Shown here in pieces: positions 3,161 through 24,883 of a DNA stretch of 52,760 nucleotides (its first letter is position 1; each line of letters opens with the position of its first letter). Where the stretch lies: assembly GCA_903920205.1 (NCBI GenBank), contig CAIXLI010000205.1:1-52760 (forward strand). The letters run 5' to 3'. Under the pieces are notes generated by a model. It did no database searches and had not been told where the DNA came from. It was given only the letters and a program-made list of their open reading frames with translations. Source of the stretch: an uncultured Pseudomonadota bacterium. Its GTDB lineage: Bacteria > Pseudomonadota > Alphaproteobacteria > UBA9219. Made by a program: the position numbers and the translations under genes.

Positions 3161-3236
3161 GGGCCTGTAGTTCAGCGGTTAGAACGCACCGCTCATAACG
3201 GTGTTGTCGCAGGTTCGAATCCTGCCGGGCCCACCA
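3161..3236 (+). tRNA. tRNA with CAT anticodon (elongator Met or Ile2)
   Basis: A 76-base cloverleaf with encoded CCA. The acceptor stem GGGCCTG pairs with CGGGCCC (one G-U), the anticodon stem CACCG/CGGTG encloses the loop CTCATAA, and the T-arm holds GGTTCGAATCC. The anticodon CAT fits elongator tRNA-Met or the lysidine-modified tRNA-Ile2; it is not the initiator, because positions 1 and 72 pair and the anticodon stem lacks the three G-C pairs. I lean to Ile2 from the GGGCC acceptor, but the choice needs identity-element scoring. A conserved repeat begins directly after the CCA. Confidence 0.93.
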
Positions 3237-3329: not shown

Positions 3330-3557
3330 TTGCCTCAAATTTTTTCATCTTTTTGTGGCGAAAGCCCTTCCCTCTCCGTCAAAACTTTCACGGAACGAAG
3401 CATGGCTTACCCCTTGAAACTATAGGCAATTCCCTTGCGAGGAAAGAGCGCCAAGGTCTTGTTTTTTATCTACAATTTTAGATAACTGCTCGGCATAATT
3501 ACCGGAATATTAGACAATAAATGCTTTGATGATGGAATAACAAGCTTGGTTATTCCG
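3330..3557 (+). other. non-coding gap with inverted repeat abutting the lapG-like start codon
   Basis: No gene seen. At 3534-3556 a perfect inverted repeat GGAATAAC-N7-GTTATTCC ends one base before the ATG at 3558, in the place where a ribosome site would be expected; none is visible. It could be an operator or an RNA hairpin that limits translation. The rest of the gap shows nothing recognisable. Confidence 0.5.
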
Positions 3558-4217
3558 ATGTCTATATTGAAGGTTTGGTATTTGATCCTTTTCGTTTTGA
3601 CCCTGCTTGGCGGGACAAGCCAGGCACAGGCCGACGACTATACACAGCCCCCTGCCGCTATTACAGGCAACGCGCTGGACACCCTTCACGCAGATACTCT
3701 TTTCGGACACGCCTCTGTCAGCTATCAAGACATTAAAGCCTTCACCAAGTGGAGCGATGTTCTGCAACGTCAAGCGAAGATCGACTCTACCGATAGGGTC
3801 GTGGCTTGGCAGGAATTCTTGGATTCCATCAGAGACAAGAGCAAAGATGAACAGATCGCGGCGGTGAACGACTATGTGAACGCGCTACCTTACATAACCG
3901 ACATGGACAACTATGGCGTGGAAGATCATTGGGCAACCGTTGAAGACTTCCTTGAACATAACGGCGGCGATTGCGAAGATTACGCGCTGGCTAAATATTT
4001 CTCACTCATCGAACTTGGATTTACCCCCGACCAAATGCGTTTGGTGATCTTGTATGATGCCGACAAAAACGCCGACCATGCCGTTCTGGCGATGACGCAT
4101 AACGACAAGATCGAGATATTGGACAATCAGTACAGCAGCGTGCGTGACGCCCAGACCATATCAAACTATAAGCCTATTTACGCCATTTCTCAGGAGCAAT
4201 GGTGGCGCTATCTGTAA
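3558..4217 (+). CDS. LapG-like periplasmic transglutaminase-type cysteine protease
   Basis: A 219-residue member of the bacterial transglutaminase-like cysteine proteinase family (BTLCP/DUF920), to which LapG belongs. LapG cleaves surface adhesins in the periplasm at di-alanine (T/PAAG) motifs. A signal peptide is visible (MSILKVWYLILFVLTLLGG then AQA-DD). The catalytic Cys is in GGDCEDYALAKYF, the His in NADHAVLAM and the Asp in EILDNQYSS, in the order and spacing of the LapG triad. The ATG at 3558 is preferred over a TTG at 3546 because the signal peptide begins there. It converges on tpsA, sharing a bidirectional terminator, which suggests that TpsA may be its substrate; no LapD-like c-di-GMP receptor is in the window. 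Confidence 0.8.
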   Translation: MSILKVWYLILFVLTLLGGTSQAQADDYTQPPAAITGNALDTLHADTLFGHASVSYQDIKAFTKWSDVLQRQAKIDSTDRVVAWQEFLDSIRDKSKDEQIAAVNDYVNALPYITDMDNYGVEDHWATVEDFLEHNGGDCEDYALAKYFSLIELGFTPDQMRLVILYDADKNADHAVLAMTHNDKIEILDNQYSSVRDAQTISNYKPIYAISQEQWWRYL

Positions 4218-4244: not shown

Positions 4245-4271
4245 AAAAGAGCCGCATATAGCGGCTCTTTT
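4245..4271. terminator. bidirectional Rho-independent terminator
   Basis: AAAAGAGCCGC, a five-base ATATA loop, then GCGGCTCTTTT. It has A-run and T-run on opposite sides, so it can end both the lapG-like gene (+) and tpsA (-), which converge here. Confidence 0.9.
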
Positions 4272-4292: not shown

Positions 4293-7200
4293 TTACTGAG
4301 CGAGGCCACAAGACTTGTTGTCGAGGAAGCTGTTGCCACAGGCAATGGATTCATCCGTGGCACCGCCGCGTCCATTTCCGCCCGCTGCAGGAGCCATAGC
4401 GTTCAACTCTTCAGGAGTCAGTCCTGCGGTTTCCGTATGGCTTCCTCCTGCCGCCGGAGAGATGGCGTTAAAGATGCTCGCAATGTCGCCGCCCCTTCCT
4501 TGCGGAGGTGCTTTGATGCTCACATTCGTATCAAGCGTATGAATTTCATAGGGCTTGAAGGGAAGATTCTGAACAATAACATTGTTGTTATAGGAAAGAA
4601 TCGGACGGCCCAGAGGATCAATGCGAATAAATGACCCCGCAGGAAAGGTACTGACCGGGGCCGGATTAATCGTCAGGTCACCTGCCGCATAGCTGATCGT
4701 ATAGTTAGCCTCGACCGCGCCGCTCGCCGTCAGTGTGCCCTTATAGGTGCCCACGCTGGCCGTTGCAGGCGTGCCCGATACAACTGTCGGAGCCGTCGTC
4801 AGCTTCGAGGCGTCGTCGCCATTCACAAAGCCGCTATAACTCGCCGTCAGACTCGGCATGACGCCGCCATAAGTCACATGCTGGTTATCAGCCGCAATCA
4901 AAAGCTCGGCCTTGCCAATAATCAGGTCGCCTGCCGCATAGCTAATGGTATAGTTGGCATCAACCGCGCCGCTCGCTGTTAGGGTTCCTTCATAGGTACC
5001 TGCGTTAGCATTCGCCGCAGTGCCCGACACAACAGTCGGAGCCGTTGTCAGTTTCGACGCGTCGTCGCCGTTCACGAAGCCAGTATAACTTGCCGTCAGT
5101 GTCGGCATAATGCCGCCATAGGTCATGCCCTTGCTGTCAGCCGTAATCAGCAGCCTCGCGGGATCAATGGTCAGGTCGCCTGCCGCATAGCTGATGGTGT
5201 AGTTACCATCAACCGCGCCACTCGCCGTCAGGGTTCCCGTATAGGTACCTGCATTAGCCGTCGCCGCCGTGCCCGACACAACAGTTGGGGCCGCGGTCAG
5301 TTTCGACGCGTCATCGCCATTCACAAAGCCGCTATAGCTTGCCGTCAGGGCTGGCATCACGCCGCCATAGGTCATGCTCTTGCTGTCAGCCGTGATCAAC
5401 AGACTGGCCTTGCCGATTGTCAGGTCACCCGCCACATAGCTGATGGTATAGTTTTTATCCACGGCTCCCTTCGCGGTGATCGTGTCCGTATAGGTTCCCG
5501 CGCCAGCCGTCGCCAGAGTCGCGGAAGTAACGGTCGGCTTTTTTGTCAGGCTGGAGGAATTGTCGCCGTTCACAAAGCCGCTATAGCTGACGGTCAAAGT
5601 CGGCATGGTGCCGCCATAGGTCATGCTCTTGTCGTCCGCCTTGATAATAAGCGCTGCCTTATTAATCGTCAGATCGCCTTTTACATAGCAGATCGTGTAG
5701 TTGTTATCGACGGCACCTTTCGCGGTGATGGTGTTATAATAGGTTCCCGCATCGGCAGTCGCAGGAGTGGCGGAAGTAACAGTCGGCTTCGTCGTCAGGC
5801 TGGACGAATTGTCGCCGTTCACAAAGCCGCTATAGCTGACTGTCAGGGTCGGCATGCTGCCGCCATAGGTCATGGTCTTGTCATTCGCCGTAATTTTCAG
5901 CGCCGCCTTGTTGATTGTTAGATCGCCCGCGACATAGCTGATCGTATAATTACTATCGACCGCACCACTTGCCGTCAGCGTGTTCGCATAAGTTCCCGCG
6001 TTAGCCGTCGCCGGAGTCGCGGAAGTAACTGTCGGTTTCTTCGTCAGGCTGAACGAATTGTCGCCGTTCACAAAGCCGCTATAGCTGACGGTCAGGGTCG
6101 GCATGCTGCCGCCATAGGTCATGCTCTTGTCATCCGCCGTAATTTTCAGCGCCGCCTTGTTGATTGTTAGATCACCTTTCACATAGCTGATCGTGTAGTT
6201 GCTATCGACAGCACCTTTCGCGGTGATGGTGTTATAATAGGTTCCCGCATCGGCAGTCGCCTGAGTGGCGGAAGTAACAGTCGGCTTCGTCGTCAGGCTG
6301 AACGAATTGTCGCCGTTCACAAAGCCGCTATAGCTGACCGTAAGGGTCGGCATAGCGCCGCCATAGGTCATGATCTTGTCGTCCGCCGTGATGGTCAACT
6401 TCGCTGGCGAAATCGTGAAAGTGTTGCCGACATAGGTAATCGCATAATTACCAGCGCCGCTGGCGGTGAGTGTCCCTTGCAGGATATTGTATGTACCGAC
6501 ATTCTCCCCGGTAGTGCGCGTCAGCGCACCGATAAAGCTGTCGCCGCTCAAAAGCGTACCGGTATAGGTGTAGGTCAGCAACGAGGGGTCAAGAGAACCA
6601 TAAATTTTCGTTCCTGAATCCGCTGCAACCCGCAAATAAGTGACAGGCAGAGGGTCCAACACGCCACAGCCAACACCGCCCGCGGCGAAGCAGTCACTAT
6701 TGCCACTGATCGTCTTGCCATCGATGGTGATGGATCCGCCATTCGCGTTGTGTACGAATGTGTTAGAATTTCCAAAGTTGTTAAAAGCTAGCGTTGAGCC
6801 ATTTTCGATCAGCCTGATTCCTCCAACCGACGAGACGAGAGGCGATGTCGTGTCGATGATGACCGAATTTGTGCTGACATCCCCACTTGTTCTGTCGCAA
6901 GCACAACCGGCCGCAATACCTTTGATGGTCACATTCCCGCCACGCACATAGATAGATGTATTGTTGATCGAAACGCTGCCTGCAATCAGATTCAGATTTC
7001 CGCCCAAGGAAGAGCCAAGCCCCTTCAGGTAAAACGTACCATGATTGATAGCGATGTTGTTGCCAGCAAGGAAAGTAACGGAACCGCCAACAGTCCTTAC
7101 ATAATTATTGTTAAGCGTAATGGTTCCCGTTCCCGCCCTCAGGGAAGTCGAAATGCCGTTAATTGTTCCTGTAATGTTGGAACCCGACACGCCCGCAACA

Positions 7201-8609
7201 AGAAACAAACTAGCAGTCGGATGCGTCATGTTGATATCAGCCCCGATGTTAAGAGTCTTGTTGGCCCATAACACGACATTCGACGACGAAGCGTTGATCG
7301 TAGCAACGCCGATGGTGGAGGTTCCTGTCGCAGGAAGCGAGGAATTCCATGCCACGCCGGTTGCGGAGATATTAATCGTATCGGGATCAAGCAGCCAGCT
7401 GCCCGTAGCGCCCGAGGGAGCCAAGGCATCTACAATCGCGCCTTCGACATAAATAACGTTTTGCGAAGAAGTTTCGACTGTGCCGCCGTTGCCGCCCTGC
7501 GCCCCGCCGCGCGCCGAGAGTTGTCCCTGAGCGACTGTCGCATTTTCAGACCATGCGATGACCGAGCCGCCATTGCCATTTTCGGTAGCATCGGCCTTAA
7601 TCACGGCATCCTTGGTGATGGTGACATTCATGGCAGTTGCCAAGGTTCCCTGACCACGGCTATCGCCGCCGATTTTGACCGCGCCGCCACCAGTGGTGCC
7701 GGAGGCATCAATCTTACCGCTAACCTGAACATCGGCGCCCTGTCCCGTCAGGACGACTTCGCCATTCACGTTCTTCAGGCCACGCGCCTGAATATAGCCC
7801 GAGTCATTAATGACAGAGCTAACAACATCGCTCGCAGTCGCCGCCGTCATCAGAACCTTGCCGCCATCGGCGATAATCGACCCTGAATTCTCTGCGGTCA
7901 ACGTTCTGTGACCGGAACCTTCAGAAGACGCGACGGCGAAGCTCAACAGCCCGTCGCCGGAAAAATCCACTGCAAAAGTATCGGCAGCGGCAAGTTGCAC
8001 CTTATTGCCTTCAATGACGCCGCTGTTACGCACAGTCGGGGCCACTAACGCAGCCAGACCAGTCTCTGCGACTGTAATATGCCCTTGGTTCTCAACGATG
8101 GCATCAGGATTACCCGGGCGGTTGAAAACTAGCTCTTTCTTGGAAAGAGCATCATTGGACATATCAGCCGTCGTGGCGACAAACCCCGCCGTATTAATTC
8201 TGCCGTTAGGGCCAATCAAGACGCCATTCGGATTGATGACGACAATACGACCATTGGCAATAAGGCTGCCGTCAAGCGCGCTGAGCTGCGTGCTGTTGAC
8301 AACACGGTTCACGGCAATCGAATTGGCGCCGGGTTGATAAAAATGCGTCACTTCCCCTTTGCCAATATTAAAAGAAGCCCAATCGATTAAAGTACGATCG
8401 GAGGATTGCCTGATTTGAAGTTCGCTGGGCGTATTGATGATCGTCGTGTTTCCGCTAACAACTGTACCGTTTTGCGGATTTGCTTGGGCGGCCTCTGGAA
8501 CCAAAGCGCCAACAAAAACGGCACTGACCAAGAGAACCACACGGGCGCAACCCTTCAAGGTATTTACAACGGGGGTGCGAAAGCGAGCGATAACGATAGA
8601 GGTGATCAT
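4293..8609 (-). CDS. Two-partner-secretion exoprotein (filamentous haemagglutinin type, MBG repeats)
   Basis: A 1438-residue secreted adhesin of the TpsA family. The ATG at 8609 is chosen because it gives a normal long signal peptide (MITSIVIARF... ending near EAAQANPQNG); a longer frame to 8714 has an unlikely N-terminus. The TPS secretion domain follows, with NPNGVLIGPNGRIN and WASFNIGKGEVTHF. The middle is a beta-helix-like region, then one divergent and seven near-identical 83-residue MBG/YDG-type repeats (DNA 4656-6398). The C-terminus has two PAAG motifs (residues 1385-1388 and 1407-1410) and a Cys pair (C1424 and C1434, last 15 residues), as in the HMW1 surface anchor. TpsB is divergent upstream; a LapG-like protease is convergent downstream. 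The cargo role (adhesion or biofilm) is inferred from family. Confidence 0.9.
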   Translation of the reverse strand: MITSIVIARFRTPVVNTLKGCARVVLLVSAVFVGALVPEAAQANPQNGTVVSGNTTIINTPSELQIRQSSDRTLIDWASFNIGKGEVTHFYQPGANSIAVNRVVNSTQLSALDGSLIANGRIVVINPNGVLIGPNGRINTAGFVATTADMSNDALSKKELVFNRPGNPDAIVENQGHITVAETGLAALVAPTVRNSGVIEGNKVQLAAADTFAVDFSGDGLLSFAVASSEGSGHRTLTAENSGSIIADGGKVLMTAATASDVVSSVINDSGYIQARGLKNVNGEVVLTGQGADVQVSGKIDASGTTGGGAVKIGGDSRGQGTLATAMNVTITKDAVIKADATENGNGGSVIAWSENATVAQGQLSARGGAQGGNGGTVETSSQNVIYVEGAIVDALAPSGATGSWLLDPDTINISATGVAWNSSLPATGTSTIGVATINASSSNVVLWANKTLNIGADINMTHPTASLFLVAGVSGSNITGTINGISTSLRAGTGTITLNNNYVRTVGGSVTFLAGNNIAINHGTFYLKGLGSSLGGNLNLIAGSVSINNTSIYVRGGNVTIKGIAAGCACDRTSGDVSTNSVIIDTTSPLVSSVGGIRLIENGSTLAFNNFGNSNTFVHNANGGSITIDGKTISGNSDCFAAGGVGCGVLDPLPVTYLRVAADSGTKIYGSLDPSLLTYTYTGTLLSGDSFIGALTRTTGENVGTYNILQGTLTASGAGNYAITYVGNTFTISPAKLTITADDKIMTYGGAMPTLTVSYSGFVNGDNSFSLTTKPTVTSATQATADAGTYYNTITAKGAVDSNYTISYVKGDLTINKAALKITADDKSMTYGGSMPTLTVSYSGFVNGDNSFSLTKKPTVTSATPATANAGTYANTLTASGAVDSNYTISYVAGDLTINKAALKITANDKTMTYGGSMPTLTVSYSGFVNGDNSSSLTTKPTVTSATPATADAGTYYNTITAKGAVDNNYTICYVKGDLTINKAALIIKADDKSMTYGGTMPTLTVSYSGFVNGDNSSSLTKKPTVTSATLATAGAGTYTDTITAKGAVDKNYTISYVAGDLTIGKASLLITADSKSMTYGGVMPALTASYSGFVNGDDASKLTAAPTVVSGTAATANAGTYTGTLTASGAVDGNYTISYAAGDLTIDPARLLITADSKGMTYGGIMPTLTASYTGFVNGDDASKLTTAPTVVSGTAANANAGTYEGTLTASGAVDANYTISYAAGDLIIGKAELLIAADNQHVTYGGVMPSLTASYSGFVNGDDASKLTTAPTVVSGTPATASVGTYKGTLTASGAVEANYTISYAAGDLTINPAPVSTFPAGSFIRIDPLGRPILSYNNNVIVQNLPFKPYEIHTLDTNVSIKAPPQGRGGDIASIFNAISPAAGGSHTETAGLTPEELNAMAPAAGGNGRGGATDESIACGNSFLDNKSCGLAQ
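4656..6398 (-). repeat. seven tandem 249-bp repeats encoding MBG domains
   Basis: Seven consecutive units of exactly 83 codons, each with MTYGG.MPTLT.SYSGFVNGD (the last unit has VTYGG), GTY, GAV and NYTISY landmarks. Units cluster in two subfamilies: the first four carry NGDNS and KPTVTSAT, the last three carry NGDDASKL and APTVVSGT. The strong DNA similarity makes copy-number change by recombination, and assembly collapse, likely here. Confidence 0.95.
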
Positions 8610-8934
8610 GGGACACCCAACCTTTTGGTTTTCAATAATGGTTAATAATACGTTAAACAATAATGCCAACATATGTTGAAAGAAATAAAAAGTAAAGATT
8701 TTTATTATTTTCATAAACGTCAGAACAGGAAAAGACCGACAAGAAAACCTTGGTTGTATCCCCCCAAATACCTATAGCTTTTCATTATAAAAGCGGCACC
8801 ACACCTGTGTTACTTTTGCAACAATTAGGCGGAATATCTTTCGTGACGCTATCAATCTTTATGATTCTGGCTAAAACTTGCAACACTATTATTAGACTTT
8901 ATGCCTCCCCCTCTTTGAACAAGGGTTTCCGATC
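8610..8934. promoter_or_regulatory. shared AT-rich control region of tpsA and tpsB
   Basis: A 325-bp non-coding stretch between the divergent tpsA and tpsB starts. It holds a perfect CtrA-type box (8642-8656) close to tpsA, and two copies of TTGCAACA (8816-8823 and 8878-8885) spaced 62 bases apart, about six helical turns, on the tpsB side. I see no unambiguous sigma70 promoter. Confidence 0.5.
8642..8656. promoter_or_regulatory. CtrA-type binding box TTAA-N7-TTAA
   Basis: TTAATAATACGTTAA is an exact match to the CtrA consensus TTAA-N7-TTAA of Alphaproteobacteria. It lies 33-47 bases upstream of the tpsA start codon, where it could overlap the promoter. In AT-rich DNA such a match can arise by chance about once in a few tens of kilobases. 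Confidence 0.4.
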
Positions 8935-10626
8935 ATGATCGAAAGCAAAAAAATTCGCACTGCCTCGTTCCTTTTGGCCTGCGCCGTTACCTCCTTGTGC
9001 AACGCGGCGCGTGCGGAACAAATACCCTCCACAGCACAGCCTGGGGTTCTTTTGCGTAGTTTAGAGAAACAAAGTATCGAGCCGACTCTTTCGGCACAAG
9101 ACATTATCGTCATACAAAAAGGCAAAAACGAGGCTGGCGATCTAAGCGAGGATAAAGCGTTTACGTTGCAAAGCCTTACCCTAGAAGGATCGACCCTTTA
9201 CGGCCAAGAAGCCGTCAACGATGTCATTCGGGATTATGTTGGCAAACAGACTTCGTTTGCCGATCTGAATGCTATCGGGGCTCGTTTAACGGCGATGTAT
9301 CGCAACGATGGCTATATTTTCTCGCGCGTGATTGTTCCTCCGCAAAAGATTAAGGACGGCGTCGTTCATCTGAAAGCTCTTGAAGGCCGCGTAACAGACG
9401 TCAAAATCGTCGGCACCTATAAAGATGACAACCACCTCATCAAGGATATGGCCGAAAAAATAAAAGCCTCCGTCCCCACTAACGAAAAAGACATCGAACG
9501 GTACCTTCTTCTTATCAACGATCTTCCCGGCATCAAGGCGCGCGGCGTCATAAGCCCCTCGCAAACGCCCGGCGGCGGAGAACTTACGATCACGATTGAG
9601 CAAAAAGATCTTGAAGGATCTGTCGGCATAGACAATCGCGGGTCAAGAAACCTCGGCCCCTTTCAAGCCACGGCGATAGCCGCTGCTAATTCGCTTTTTG
9701 GCATTCACGACAGGACTACTGTTCGCGTTATTTCCACCACCGACGCGAAAGAGCTTATGTATGGAGAAATAACCCACGAAGAACAGTTGGGAACCGAAGG
9801 AGCCAATGTCGTCTTCCGCTATGCAAGGACACGGTCGAGACCCGGCGATAACCTTGCCTATCTTGACATCAAGGGCAACAGCGACAATTTCGATGCGGAA
9901 ACAATGTATCCCCTGCTCCGCAGCCGCCACACCAACGTCAATTTATTGGCTGGATTTAACTCTTTGGGATCGGAATCAAGCATTCTTGGCATAAAAACCG
10001 TCGAGGATCGCGTCAGAAGCCTGCGCATCGGAAGCCATGTTGATTTTACGGATTCTTGGGCGGGCATAACCCAAGTTGAAGCCAAAGTCATCAAGGGCCT
10101 CTCTATCTTCGACGCGACGCCTGACGGCGCGGGACGGTCGAACATCAACGGCAAGCATGACTTTCTGCGCACCGATGTATCGGCGACGCGCGTGCAGGAT
10201 CTTTGGGACAAATTTTCGCTTCAGGTATCGGGACACGGTCAATACACTCAAGACCCTTTGCTCTCCTCCGAACAATTCTTGATCGGCGGACAAGGGTTTG
10301 GTCGCGCTTATGATTCAGGGGAGTTGACCGGAGACCAAGGCATCGTCGGCGCGGTCGAGCTGCGTTATGGCGAAGAAACAGGTAACCGCTATATCCCCGC
10401 CTATCAATTCTTTACCTACTACGATTCAGGCAGGGTTTGGAACCTTAACTCTGTCGTAGGGCAAGCGGGAACGGATGCCATCAGTTCAGCAGGTGGCGGC
10501 GTGAGGTTTAACCTCGACTACGACATCTCTGGATCGTTTGAACTCGACAAGCCCCTAACCCGTCAGGTTTCTGCGGAAGGCAACAAGGATACGAGAATCT
10601 TCTTCTCGCTCTTGAAGAGATTCTAA
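8935..10626 (+). CDS. TpsB outer-membrane transporter (ShlB/FhaC/HecB family)
   Basis: The 563-residue outer-membrane partner that recognises the TPS domain of TpsA via periplasmic POTRA domains and exports it through a 16-strand barrel. It has a signal peptide (about residues 1-27, ending NAARAEQ), a POTRA_2-type domain (about 75-155, FTLQSLTLEGSTLYG to ALEGRVTDV), a second POTRA (about 155-225) and a barrel from about 225 to the end. The chain ends in a terminal phenylalanine (LLKRF), the usual signature for BAM-dependent insertion. The start is supported by AAGGG 12 bases upstream. It is divergent from tpsA; the two are often adjacent and co-oriented in other bacteria, so this arrangement allows separate control. 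Confidence 0.92.
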   Translation: MIESKKIRTASFLLACAVTSLCNAARAEQIPSTAQPGVLLRSLEKQSIEPTLSAQDIIVIQKGKNEAGDLSEDKAFTLQSLTLEGSTLYGQEAVNDVIRDYVGKQTSFADLNAIGARLTAMYRNDGYIFSRVIVPPQKIKDGVVHLKALEGRVTDVKIVGTYKDDNHLIKDMAEKIKASVPTNEKDIERYLLLINDLPGIKARGVISPSQTPGGGELTITIEQKDLEGSVGIDNRGSRNLGPFQATAIAAANSLFGIHDRTTVRVISTTDAKELMYGEITHEEQLGTEGANVVFRYARTRSRPGDNLAYLDIKGNSDNFDAETMYPLLRSRHTNVNLLAGFNSLGSESSILGIKTVEDRVRSLRIGSHVDFTDSWAGITQVEAKVIKGLSIFDATPDGAGRSNINGKHDFLRTDVSATRVQDLWDKFSLQVSGHGQYTQDPLLSSEQFLIGGQGFGRAYDSGELTGDQGIVGAVELRYGEETGNRYIPAYQFFTYYDSGRVWNLNSVVGQAGTDAISSAGGGVRFNLDYDISGSFELDKPLTRQVSAEGNKDTRIFFSLLKRF

Positions 10627-20898: not shown

Positions 20899-20916
20899 GA
20901 CAAAGGTTTTTTGGTC

Positions 20917-21984
20917 ATGGCAAGTAACATCAGACATATGTCGCGCGACACCATCGGTATTTTGCAAGAGCATTTGCACGTTGGCAAGGATAAGGTCCTA
21001 GGTCGCAAAACCCTTAAGGCCCTACATAAACTTTCCTACGCCGCACAACAAAAACTTATTCGTCATGTCAAAAAAGAGGCGTTGAAAAGAGGCGCGTTAG
21101 CAGCTACTTCGAAAATGGTCAGCGATGCAAGCACGCCCAATCAAAGCATGTGGAACGATCTTCCTCCTCAAGAACAGAAACGCATTCTGGAGACGACACA
21201 AAAAGAATTCAAAATATCGAGCCTTTCGCCTACGGTTGGAGAGGATATTGAACGTTCAGGCGGAAGCAGACTTTCATCCCTTGATATGAGCCCTTCCGAT
21301 ACGAACGATGCTGGAAATTTCTTCGCTAGGTCGCAGGAACCCGCCAGCGCCCCCAATAGTTTGGCGGCGCTGAAAGCATGCTCGAAGATTGATAATACGG
21401 GATCGTTTTTAGATCTCACAAATTCCAAAACCAAGAAAGTTTATCGTCAAATTAAAGCTCATGGCGGACCAACTGGATGGTGCGCCGAATGGACGAGAAA
21501 GCTGTTAGATTCTTGCGGTGTTGTTATACGCAAAGAGGGAAAGATCCTTGGCAGAGCCCGCGACTACACCAAGGACATCATGAACAAACACGGGTTTTCA
21601 CAGCTCCAAGCAGGGATTAGCGGAGAGAAGATCAGTCTTACGGAGTTAAAAAAGCTCTCAGAAAATATGGTCGGTGACATCAATCGCACGATTGTGCTGG
21701 TGTTCACGCCAAAAGACAAAAGATCTCAAGAAGCTGGACACATTTGTTTGGTCGATCCAAAATCAGGAAAATCCGTCTCCGATTGGGACCAAAAAAGCCT
21801 AACTGGGCTGAAAAATCCAGGGAAATTCACTTGTTCGGCTTATATTAAGGCCGACCCCGAAACGGATTATAGTCCAAGCATGGAAAACACAGCGAAGGCG
21901 GAAGATAAATCACTGGGAACGAAGAACTACACGAAAGAAGTTGCCGGCTTTAAGAGAAGCCTCATCGGGGCTTCCCCCGTCTAG
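20917..21984 (+). CDS. CHAP/NlpC-like cysteine amidase candidate with long basic N-terminus
   Basis: A 355-residue protein without signal peptide. The first about 100 residues are basic and helical, with two copies of a motif of the form L/W-x2-L-x4-Q-x2-hh (LHKLSYAAQQKLI, WNDLPPQEQKRIL). A Ser/Thr-rich linker follows, then a likely catalytic domain from about 155 with GPTGWCAEWTRKLLDSCG (Cys189) and EAGHICLVD (His275), in the Cys-then-His order of CHAP and NlpC/P60 peptidoglycan amidases. The third catalytic residue is not obvious. It starts 18 bases after the His-rich gene and lies in the same operon. The family assignment is by pattern, not by close likeness. Confidence 0.55.
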   Translation: MASNIRHMSRDTIGILQEHLHVGKDKVLGRKTLKALHKLSYAAQQKLIRHVKKEALKRGALAATSKMVSDASTPNQSMWNDLPPQEQKRILETTQKEFKISSLSPTVGEDIERSGGSRLSSLDMSPSDTNDAGNFFARSQEPASAPNSLAALKACSKIDNTGSFLDLTNSKTKKVYRQIKAHGGPTGWCAEWTRKLLDSCGVVIRKEGKILGRARDYTKDIMNKHGFSQLQAGISGEKISLTELKKLSENMVGDINRTIVLVFTPKDKRSQEAGHICLVDPKSGKSVSDWDQKSLTGLKNPGKFTCSAYIKADPETDYSPSMENTAKAEDKSLGTKNYTKEVAGFKRSLIGASPV

Positions 21985-22017
21985 GCATTATAGCGATAGG
22001 ATAGGAGGCATTGTGTC

Positions 22018-23034
22018 ATGAAACGCTATCATAACCACCTGAAACTACCTAGAAATCATGCTGATATTGAATATATTCAGCGACACATGAAGGGGTATCA
22101 TGGCGATTTTGACGGTATTGCAACCCTCAAAAACGGGGGGGAAAGCGAGACCCAAAAGGTTTGGAGACATCTGTCCAGAAGGAAACAAAGAAAGCTTCTC
22201 TTAGGTGCTATAGGCCATAGAGGAAAGCCCTCTCTTGCCGCTCATAACACAGCAAGCGTGGCACCACGACCCGATCAAACACTTCGCCATCATAACCGTA
22301 GGAACCGCGGTGCCTTAAAGAAGGTTAGTGTTGCGATAGTCCCTGCTCCCGATAGTGAGGAAGCGTGCGAGCTGAATCTGAATAAGTTCCACAGCAAGGT
22401 AGTGAAAGCATGCTCCGTTCGGTACGATGAGCACTTTATAAACAGAGGCGTTAAAAGCCCAACGGCCTATGGTGGCCATTGTGCGGGTGTTATGTGCGGA
22501 GTCGCCAGCACCCTTCTTGGAAAAACTATACCGCTTACAAACGCCAAGGATCTCCCTGACGTCCTACCATCGTTTGGTTTTAAGAATTTGGGTATAACCG
22601 TTTCCAAAAAAGGTGAATATCTGAACAAGGATGGAACTCCCTATAAGCCTGAGCCAGGGGATATCGCCATTATAAACAAAAAAGGCTCTCCGTTTGGTCA
22701 TGCGGCGATGAGAGAAAAAGACGGCTGGTTTTCGGATGCCGTTCAGGGAGAGAGACTGTGGCCCTACTCGGCCCCGGAAGATCCACATGCCTGCGCATTC
22801 TACCGCAACGATAAGATTAATCATATGTTCGTTAGCAGACCAGACCCCGCGAAAGATCCACAATGGATGGCTAAGGCAGTAGCACCGGAAGTGGGTTCTA
22901 AAAATTTTCTGCAATCCCAGAGCAGTTCTCCCGGTCTTACGAGCTTTGTCGATAAGCAAGCAGTCACAAACAAGGGGACAGGCAAAATCTCCATGCTGGG
23001 GTTACAGACCGCACCCAATTCTTTGGTTCCATAA
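22018..23034 (+). CDS. CHAP/amidase-like cysteine hydrolase candidate
   Basis: A 338-residue protein with no signal peptide. The N-terminal 110 residues are basic and include WRHLSRRKQRKLLL, resembling the helical motif of the preceding gene product. The catalytic-looking domain has AYGGHCAGVMCGVAS (Cys155), KPEPGDIAIINKKGS, and GHAAMREKDGWFSD (His228, Asp240), a layout typical of CHAP and T6SS-amidase-like peptidoglycan hydrolases. The C-terminal 60 residues are Ser/Gln-rich and probably unstructured. ATG is preceded by AGGAGG nine bases upstream, a strong ribosome site. Confidence 0.6.
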   Translation: MKRYHNHLKLPRNHADIEYIQRHMKGYHGDFDGIATLKNGGESETQKVWRHLSRRKQRKLLLGAIGHRGKPSLAAHNTASVAPRPDQTLRHHNRRNRGALKKVSVAIVPAPDSEEACELNLNKFHSKVVKACSVRYDEHFINRGVKSPTAYGGHCAGVMCGVASTLLGKTIPLTNAKDLPDVLPSFGFKNLGITVSKKGEYLNKDGTPYKPEPGDIAIINKKGSPFGHAAMREKDGWFSDAVQGERLWPYSAPEDPHACAFYRNDKINHMFVSRPDPAKDPQWMAKAVAPEVGSKNFLQSQSSSPGLTSFVDKQAVTNKGTGKISMLGLQTAPNSLVP

Positions 23035-23118
23035 GGAAAACGAACATGCTGCGTCCGACTTGTTCCTTTTGCTTAAAACGTCAAGGGAGCATGCCGACAA
23101 GAGATGGGGTTAGATTCT

Positions 23119-23904
23119 ATGCCTGAATACACCAAACTTCTCCCTGAACAAGGGGCTTTGGATTCGCAGTCGGCGAGGGCTGGAAGAGGATCGTTGAGAA
23201 CAGAAACGGCTTTGGCTCAGTCTGTAAGCGATTTCTCAGGCGGAAGCAGGTTTCGTTTTGAAGATCAACGGGAGGCTCTGGCAATTCTTGAGGTGGATAA
23301 AGATTATCACAAAAAACATGAACTTGATCTTTCCGTTAGCAATTCGGATTCCGGCAAGCGCGTGTCTTTAAAGAACGACAGTGCCAGCATCATTCTTGAT
23401 GCGCCCGAGATGCCTCATGGCAAGGTTGCGGTATTCGACCCCAATACCAAGACGCTTACTTTACCCGATGGCCGAAAATTCAAAATGGGCTCGGGCAAAG
23501 GGTTCGACGCGAAAACACCCGACGGCGGGGTTATCCCTCCCGGCACATGGCTCGTCGCCAAGGCTGCCAAGCATGATTTCAAGCTTGTTAACGGCATCGA
23601 TACATGTGACGCCTTCTATCTTTCCCCCACAAAGGATGTCGAACTCAACGGGCGCGACGGATTCTATATCCATCACCCTCATTCACCGAATCTGAGCAGC
23701 CTCGGCTGCCCTGTTGCGGATGACAAATGTATAGCCGCGTTGAAAGTTGCGCGGGAAAAGGACATCTTCACTTCGCTCCGCGTTCTGCCTTACGACCCTA
23801 AACTGGCGGCAACACACGGCAAGAAAGTAGAAAAAGTTGTCAAGACCAAACAAAAAGCAAAAAAGAATATTCAGGTCGCCATGACCGCGCCCGTCATAGA
23901 ATAA
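23119..23904 (+). CDS. L,D-transpeptidase-like protein (DUF2778/Tlde1-type signature)
   Basis: A 261-residue protein. After a Ser/Gly-rich N-terminus, a beta-rich domain (VAVFDPNTKTLTLPDGRKF, GVIPPGTWLV) leads into GFYIHHPHSPNLSSLGCPV, where a His cluster is followed by S-L-G-C (Cys197). This is the L,D-transpeptidase active-site order (His ... SxGC) and is closest to the DUF2778/Tlde1 form, in which SLGC replaces SHGC. Such enzymes cut or exchange peptidoglycan cross-links. There is no signal peptide, unlike housekeeping L,D-transpeptidases. The ATG at 23119 is preferred (MPE start as in the next gene); 23104 is the alternative. Confidence 0.6.
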   Translation: MPEYTKLLPEQGALDSQSARAGRGSLRTETALAQSVSDFSGGSRFRFEDQREALAILEVDKDYHKKHELDLSVSNSDSGKRVSLKNDSASIILDAPEMPHGKVAVFDPNTKTLTLPDGRKFKMGSGKGFDAKTPDGGVIPPGTWLVAKAAKHDFKLVNGIDTCDAFYLSPTKDVELNGRDGFYIHHPHSPNLSSLGCPVADDKCIAALKVAREKDIFTSLRVLPYDPKLAATHGKKVEKVVKTKQKAKKNIQVAMTAPVIE

Positions 23905-23938
23905 ACGATCATTAAAACAGTATATTTGGATTATTATT

Positions 23939-24883
23939 ATGCCAGAGGTATTAGATCCACCGCTCCCTTCAACCCCCGCTAATCCACGGGCAGCGTTGCG
24001 CACGCTTAAAAACGAAAATGCCAAGGTATCTTCTGCCGATCTTCCTCAGCCTGATCCTTCGGGAGGCACAACTGTCGCTCCCGAAAATCGTCAAGCCGTT
24101 ATTACCTCCTTCGTAACACCCGCGACAACAGAGTCTAATAATTTTCCTGATACTCAGACTGAAAACCGTCCTTTTCCAAACCCTGCAAGTCTTAAAAAAG
24201 ATCAGGCGGCAGCATCCACAGAAGGAGGGCTTTGGCAGTCTCATATCGGCTCTGAGGGATTCAGATTCACCCGGGCAAACCCCGTAAATTATAAGTGGGG
24301 CGGTAAAGAAAATATGGGGCAGTGGCTAGAAAAATTGCTTAATGGGGAGGGGAGCAAGCTGTCGGTCAATAAGCTTGATTGCTCTGGTTTCACAAAGACG
24401 CTCACTCTTGCCGTCATGCAGAAGATGAATGACCTTAGTGGCCGCCAAATTTACGATGTGCGCGCTATAGCCAAGCTTTTTCCCGATACAGCAGAAGGGC
24501 AATTCAAGGCTATTGCCGGAAAAGTGAAAGCGTGTTCCACGGAAGAAATAAAATCGGGAAACATTCCCGCAGGGGCGTTAGTCTTCCTTAAAAATAAAGC
24601 TCAACGCATTTTCCATACCGCAGCCGTAGTCACAGGACCAGACGGAGAGAAATTAATCGCCGAAAGCGGAAGCTCAAAAGGCACCACGTTAACTCCCTTG
24701 AGAAAATGGGTTTCACGGGAAATGCATGTTGGCAACAAAGTTCTCGCCGTAGACGCCCATAATCTTGCTACCCTCCCCCCTCCTGATTTGACAAGCACGG
24801 CAAACAAAGCCGCGACTAAAGCTCCGACGCAGATTGCTATGAACACGCGGATGCCGAAAGCTTTTCCTGGCTTTACTGTTTGA
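23939..24883 (+). CDS. NlpC/P60-family peptidoglycan hydrolase candidate
   Basis: A 314-residue protein. Residues 1-95 are Pro/Ser/Thr-rich and disordered. The NlpC/P60 domain follows: YKWGGKENMGQW (the family's YxWGG entry), NKLDCSGFTKTL (catalytic Cys148), IPAGALVFLKNK, and RIFHTAAVVTGPDG (His226). Members hydrolyse the gamma-D-Glu-meso-DAP bond in stem peptides. No signal peptide is present, so another export route would be needed. The tail ends QIAMNTRMPKAFPGFTV, similar in composition to the tail of the preceding gene product (QVAMTAPVIE). It is last in the cassette, 108 bp before hpnB. Confidence 0.7.
   Translation: MPEVLDPPLPSTPANPRAALRTLKNENAKVSSADLPQPDPSGGTTVAPENRQAVITSFVTPATTESNNFPDTQTENRPFPNPASLKKDQAAASTEGGLWQSHIGSEGFRFTRANPVNYKWGGKENMGQWLEKLLNGEGSKLSVNKLDCSGFTKTLTLAVMQKMNDLSGRQIYDVRAIAKLFPDTAEGQFKAIAGKVKACSTEEIKSGNIPAGALVFLKNKAQRIFHTAAVVTGPDGEKLIAESGSSKGTTLTPLRKWVSREMHVGNKVLAVDAHNLATLPPPDLTSTANKAATKAPTQIAMNTRMPKAFPGFTV

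Follow-up and report, generated by a model that had tools for sequence, protein, structure and literature searches.

The locus considered here raises the question of how a large two-partner adhesin (TpsA) is held at the cell surface, and whether the LapG-like protease encoded beside it sets it free. It lies on contig C205 of an uncultured alphaproteobacterial genome, G000 (2.32 Mb in 228 contigs, estimated 96% complete); the whole stretch of DNA analysed, 52,760 nucleotides, is referred to as the window. In Haemophilus influenzae, the adhesin HMW1 is held in its transporter HMW1B by a C-terminal pair of cysteines; to our knowledge, LapG-type release is not known for HMW1, whose likeness to the window locus, by description, is the C-terminal Cys pair. 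The cleavage consensus of LapG is [T/A/P]AAG, cut between the alanines. In Pseudomonas aeruginosa, the accessible portions of the literature describe CdrA as an MBG2-repeat TpsA: a cysteine hook keeps its C-terminus in CdrB (PMC7616799), and LapG cuts it near that end, releasing the adhesin (PMC11898600; PMC5422565; PMC4694147); as dated in these portions, the scheme was established in 2015-16. The initial annotation of the window had put forward a C-terminally held TpsA freed by LapG as a new arrangement. Given the CdrA precedent, its main idea was already established in another organism and the claim to novelty falls, but the arrangement itself gains support from the co-occurrence of tail and protease described below. 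We consider it likely that the window locus encodes a CdrA-type releasable two-partner adhesin, cut at PAAG by the neighbouring LapG-like protease.

The tpsA gene (4293..8714, minus strand), recognized from its open reading frame and a domain search, encodes a large exported adhesin in which a TPS domain is followed by MBG_2 repeats. The reading frame comprises 1473 amino acids from the first ATG, or 1438 from Met36 (start at 8609), and residues of TpsA are counted from Met36 here, as in the initial annotation. The TPS secretion domain (PF05860, 98.8 bits in a profile search) occupies 7707..8489 on the minus strand, and tandem repeats of 249 bp (83 residues), detected by repeat and domain searches as MBG_2, form the adhesin stalk (4660..6389, minus strand). 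Divergent from tpsA lies tpsB (8935..10626, plus strand; PF03865 and PF08479), encoding an outer membrane transporter of the ShlB/FhaC type with POTRA_2; with a TPS domain in TpsA and a POTRA-bearing ShlB/FhaC-type transporter adjoining, the pair constitutes a type Vb system. The gene for the LapG-like periplasmic cysteine protease (Peptidase_C93; 3558..4217, plus strand), assigned by family profile, triad and alignments, is convergent with tpsA. An ATG at 3558 is preferred as its start to the TTG at 3546 of the ORF listing, and 75 bp separate its stop at 4217 from the tpsA stop codon, which starts at 4293. RNA folding placed an 11-bp hairpin between the two convergent genes (4245..4271, both strands), flanked by T runs on either side and probably serving as a bidirectional terminator; the terminator scan did not list it, and the promoter and terminator scan of the window gave output at chance level. 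Because the lapG-like gene and tpsA converge and a probable terminator separates them, they do not form one operon. A tRNA-Met gene (anticodon CAT; 3161-3236) is found just upstream of the lapG-like gene and is a possible integration point.

That the neighbouring gene encodes a LapG-like protease, as first annotated, was confirmed by its match to Peptidase_C93/BTLCP (64.8 bits; cut-off 27) and by a catalytic triad of C139, H174 and D189, in which the cysteine is flanked by D138 and E140 (GGDCEDY). Its score against NCBIfam CystProtLapG, 89 bits (E=2.5e-25), lies below the equivalog cut-off of 320, and the protein is therefore termed LapG-like rather than taken for a close orthologue of LapG. 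With phmmer, the protease matched PDB 4fgo (E=1.5e-21), which we take to be a Legionella LapG, with the Cys, His and Asp aligned; its N-terminus resembles a signal peptide by eye. In an alignment of 25 LapG-like proteins, all keep the triad, and the Asp and Glu beside the cysteine, the presumed calcium site, are present in 21, that of the window among them; with DvhG of Desulfovibrio vulgaris, changing this Asp/Glu pair abolished activity. In a FastTree phylogeny, the window protease groups with that of G030, a genome of another family in the same order (support 0.994); the other four LapG-like proteins of its genus lie elsewhere in the tree. These four (L046, L047, L048 and L049) carry NCKD instead of DCED around the catalytic Cys, such that both presumed calcium ligands are altered and the triad is intact. 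The search for a second lapG elsewhere in G000 returned just one weak C93 match, below the cut-off, on contig C153, which was rejected.

The window TpsA ends in ...IFNAISPAAGGSHTETAGLTPEELNAMAPAAGGNGRGGATDESIACGNSFLDNKSCGLAQ. PAAGG occurs at residues 1385 and 1407, and the two PAAG sites, located by sequence and family comparison, comprise residues 1385-1388 (4446..4457, minus strand) and 1407-1410 (4380..4391, minus strand). Beyond them, Cys1424 and Cys1434 (codons at 4338..4340 and 4308..4310, minus strand), 15 and 5 residues from the end of the protein, form a CX9C pair and a putative anchor loop. The twin PAAGG, the two cysteines and the LapG-like gene 75 bp away, from which the initial annotation had argued, were thus all found again in the sequence, and the tail has the order of a CdrA-like one, with [T/A/P]AAG ahead of a terminal Cys pair. 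On shuffling of the last 90 residues, at least one [TP]AAG arose in 3.8% of cases and at least two in 0.05% (frequency 0.0005); chance occurrence of PAAG in low-complexity sequence was ruled out by these shuffles and the cross-genome counts, of which the conservation of the tail across genomes is stronger evidence than the shuffling odds. With other adhesins, a 'DP' and a helix have been described ahead of the cleavage consensus; the window sites read NAISPAAG and NAMAPAAG, and 'DP' and helix are absent as such. A second TpsA of G000, on contig C198, has neither the motif nor the Cys pair, and the stretch of C198 that was fetched around it contains no lapG match.

The generality of this tail was assessed in a sample of 385 alphaproteobacterial genomes, 110 with a C93 match and 84 with a TPS domain (143 TPS matches). 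LapG-like proteins were defined as C93 matches of less than 100 bits, among the matches listed, a split that was set after seeing the results. Of the TPS matches, 132 were taken and the window's own was set aside, leaving 131 TpsA 3' ends, from which 95 tails were obtained after 32 had run off the contig, one had proved too short and three contained N. [TP]AAG was found in the last 90 residues of 14 of the 24 tails from genomes with a LapG-like gene among the matches listed, versus 6 of the remaining 71 (p=1.7e-6), and [TP]AAG together with at least two cysteines in the last 40 residues was found in 11 of the 24 versus none of the 71 (p=3e-8). Counted by genome, and again with LapG-like genes taken from the matches listed, motif plus Cys pair occurred in 6/15 versus 0/51, and by family in 4/11 versus 0/35 (p=0.002). 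The tails concerned belong to G179 (five), G356 (two), G142, G133, G267 and G348. Conservation of the PAAG motifs, on which the initial annotation had staked its proposal, was therefore observed for motif plus Cys pair, among the sampled genomes in LapG-like ones only. A hydrophobic residue two places ahead of the motif, a pattern picked after inspection of the tails, marks 14 of the 24 tails, being all 14 that bear the motif, and none of the 71. The last site precedes the first cysteine by 4-28 residues in 13 tails, those of the window and G030 included, and the Cys loop varies from CX5C to CX31C among motif-bearing tails. The other 11 TPS matches stand outside these counts: one runs off its contig and ten have a stop, several of the ten being fragments that end within the TPS domain; motif plus Cys pair was found in none of the 11, one of which (G038) ends in KKTAAGA.

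The association is not without exceptions. The TpsAs of G340 (L113), G047 (L107) and G398 (L203) have the motif followed by 48-56 Cys-free residues; as their genomes are LapG-positive, the Cys pair is not obligatory, and a different C-terminal plug may be in use there. A third tail of G356 has the Cys pair and lacks the exact motif, and in 6 of the 15 genomes with LapG-like genes among the matches listed no motif was present in the tails read, G000 being one of the six by way of its second TpsA. Nor is every C-terminal [TP]AAG a LapG site, as seven tails from LapG-like-negative genomes carry one without the flanking pattern. In G179, five TpsAs (L104, L116, L120, L129 and L130) share a near-identical CX14C tail with PAAG sites, and one or two LapG-like proteases may hence release a whole set of adhesins.

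Within the order, five of 32 other genomes gave a LapG-like match at E<=1e-20, and the only close one was in G030 (55% identity). Its locus, which matches record RGZA01000017.1 (Alphaproteobacteria bacterium WBA_2_308), has divergent tpsB and tpsA and a convergent lapG as in the window, and its TpsA carries twin NPAAGG sites and a CX5C pair. Beyond G030, an alignment-based scan recovered just one further LapG (L057), situated away from tps genes, and a single-sequence scan of genome contigs recovered nothing. Elsewhere in the class, lapG lies near tps genes in G340 (about 3 kb), G047 (about 11 kb), G356 (contig C46) and G179 (contig C50); within the window's own genus it does so in G009, and in G007 with tpsB only.

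The initial annotation spoke of regulated release and suggested a search for lapD elsewhere in the genome. This search, a profile search of the 96% complete G000, did not detect the LapD periplasmic domain (PF16448); of 28 genomes encoding LapG-like proteins, 27, G000 among them, gave no match to it. The PF16448 model used with hmmscan detects a Vibrio LapD encoded beside a LapG gene, and the genome search included no LapD-positive control genome; a plasmid tblastn (128 records, all <60% identity) was used solely as a LapD control. Three EAL proteins of G000 were considered as LapD and rejected on their architecture: a response regulator-EAL protein, a PAS-GGDEF-EAL protein without LapD_MoxY_N, and a partial EAL. 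A DvhD-like HD-GYP protein gave no match in G000, versus matches in 79 of the 385 sample genomes, and the HD_5 domain was not found anywhere in G000. The word regulated thus loses its footing here. With no LapD- or DvhD-type c-di-GMP receptor found in G000, control might operate through expression or an unrecognized receptor, or be absent.

A candidate receptor was recognized in the class sample as a membrane protein of about 700 residues that carries an HD_5 (HD-GYP) domain; one of three also gave a PAS match. By eye, these DvhD-like candidates have two hydrophobic stretches and altered, degenerate HD and GYP residues. Among 55 strong homologues, at least 43 are encoded no more than 3 kb from a LapG-like gene, and, among the matches listed, 54 of 114 LapG-like genes have a DvhD-like neighbour versus none of 36 high-scoring C93 genes. 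Such paired loci include L137:7201-10115, L198, L196, L197, L049, L046 and L047, as well as L038, L039, L041, L042, L044 and L045, and in G356, G179 and G009 the lapG/HD-GYP cluster includes tpsB and tpsA. The term 'alphaproteobacteria' is absent from the text of the Dvh paper in its accessible part; the class-level figure and supplement of that paper may show the class. It may tentatively be suggested, with confidence a little short of even, that releasable TpsAs of the Alphaproteobacteria are under a Dvh-type switch that replaces LapD, and that the lapG lineage of the window is receptor-less; its separate position beside a tpsA without a receptor would make release in the window constitutive or responsive to an unknown signal.

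The absence of a detected receptor also bears on an alternative, namely constitutive maturation, in which the protease always clips TpsA and the product is a secreted matrix protein rather than a switchable adhesin. This agrees with the cleavage part of the CdrA-type explanation and is compatible with it. LapD, a DvhD-like protein and HD_5 were all missing from the searches of a genome estimated to be 96% complete, and the window LapG branches separately from the LapGs of its genus that are linked to a receptor; however, an unrecognized receptor is possible in a genome of 228 contigs, and there would be little point in an anchor that is invariably removed. On balance, constitutive maturation seems unlikely, if more credible than the two explanations that follow.

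It is improbable that the Cys tail anchors TpsA while the protease serves another adhesin, with PAAG a low-complexity linker and the adjacency coincidental. LapG-like genes are indeed common in the class and some, such as that at L194, adjoin type I secretion genes (by eye), and the C-terminal [TP]AAG in 6 of the 71 tails without a LapG-like gene among the matches listed, together with the one later example, is mostly set in S/G-rich linkers. Against this, the combination of motif and Cys pair occurs only in genomes with LapG-like genes among the matches listed, the flanking pattern splits the two groups of tails completely, and G030 keeps both sites and gene order at 55% LapG identity. Also judged quite improbable is a reading in which the tail is cut by the protease while TpsA is retained by a folded or charged plug at its C-terminus, the cysteines being incidental: the Cys-free tails of G340, G047 and G398 are what it would lead one to expect, but a Cys pair follows the motif in 11 of the 14 motif-bearing tails from LapG-like genomes, in the window and in G030, and CdrA, in the part of its literature accessible, has a cysteine hook.

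Release of the CdrA type, as the preferred explanation, would proceed as follows. TpsB would export TpsA with the N-terminus leading, and the C-terminal tail, probably closed as a CX9C disulfide loop, would remain in the periplasm and hold TpsA in the TpsB pore. The LapG-like protease would then cut between the two alanines at one PAAG site or at both, ahead of the cysteines, and cleavage of the tail would free the adhesin from the cell. The sequence features, the family and active-site residues of the protease and the fact that tail and protease occur together across the class are established here; judged from sequence, the TpsA tail is genuine and conserved and very probably works as a release site, the PAAG motifs are likely the cut sites of the protease, and the terminal Cys pair probably anchors the adhesin.

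The window locus represents a variation on the CdrA/LapG system in which the protease gene adjoins tpsA, the sites are twinned and no receptor was detected. In common with CdrA, as far as the accessible sources describe it, are an MBG2 TpsA and C-terminal Cys features with a LapG site, which are putative in the window; the window differs, CdrA being compared by description only, in having lapG beside tpsA, twin PAAG sites, divergent tpsB and tpsA, a distant LapG homologue and no LapD found. With the LapA/LapG/LapD system of P. fluorescens it shares a periplasmic LapG and [T/A/P]AAG beside a retention module, whereas LapA, in the accessible text, is type I secreted and held at its N-terminus (PMC4694147), and LapD was not found in G000. 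The DvhA/DvhG/DvhD system of D. vulgaris likewise has a LapG-like protease without LapD and an identical cleavage consensus, but DvhA is an N-terminally held type I adhesin and the searched window genome is without a DvhD-like protein. A link between alphaproteobacterial TpsAs and LapG, or a tail signature traced across genomes, was not found in the open-access literature, outside which many subscription papers lie. If the explanation is true, CdrA, the single known case, becomes one of a testable class of releasable two-partner adhesins, in which a short C-terminal tail signature would predict the TpsAs released by LapG-type proteases and the genes for substrate and enzyme are sometimes side by side. 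LapG-like proteases and their likely substrates are present in genomes that gave no LapD match, so that their control can be put directly to the test; the spread of the system in the Alphaproteobacteria and the missing regulator of the window genome are new leads. Elsewhere in the window, positions 20911-24883 hold four consecutive plus-strand reading frames of 266-357 residues; two of them look like NlpC/P60 or CHAP peptidases by eye, and another like an L,D-transpeptidase.
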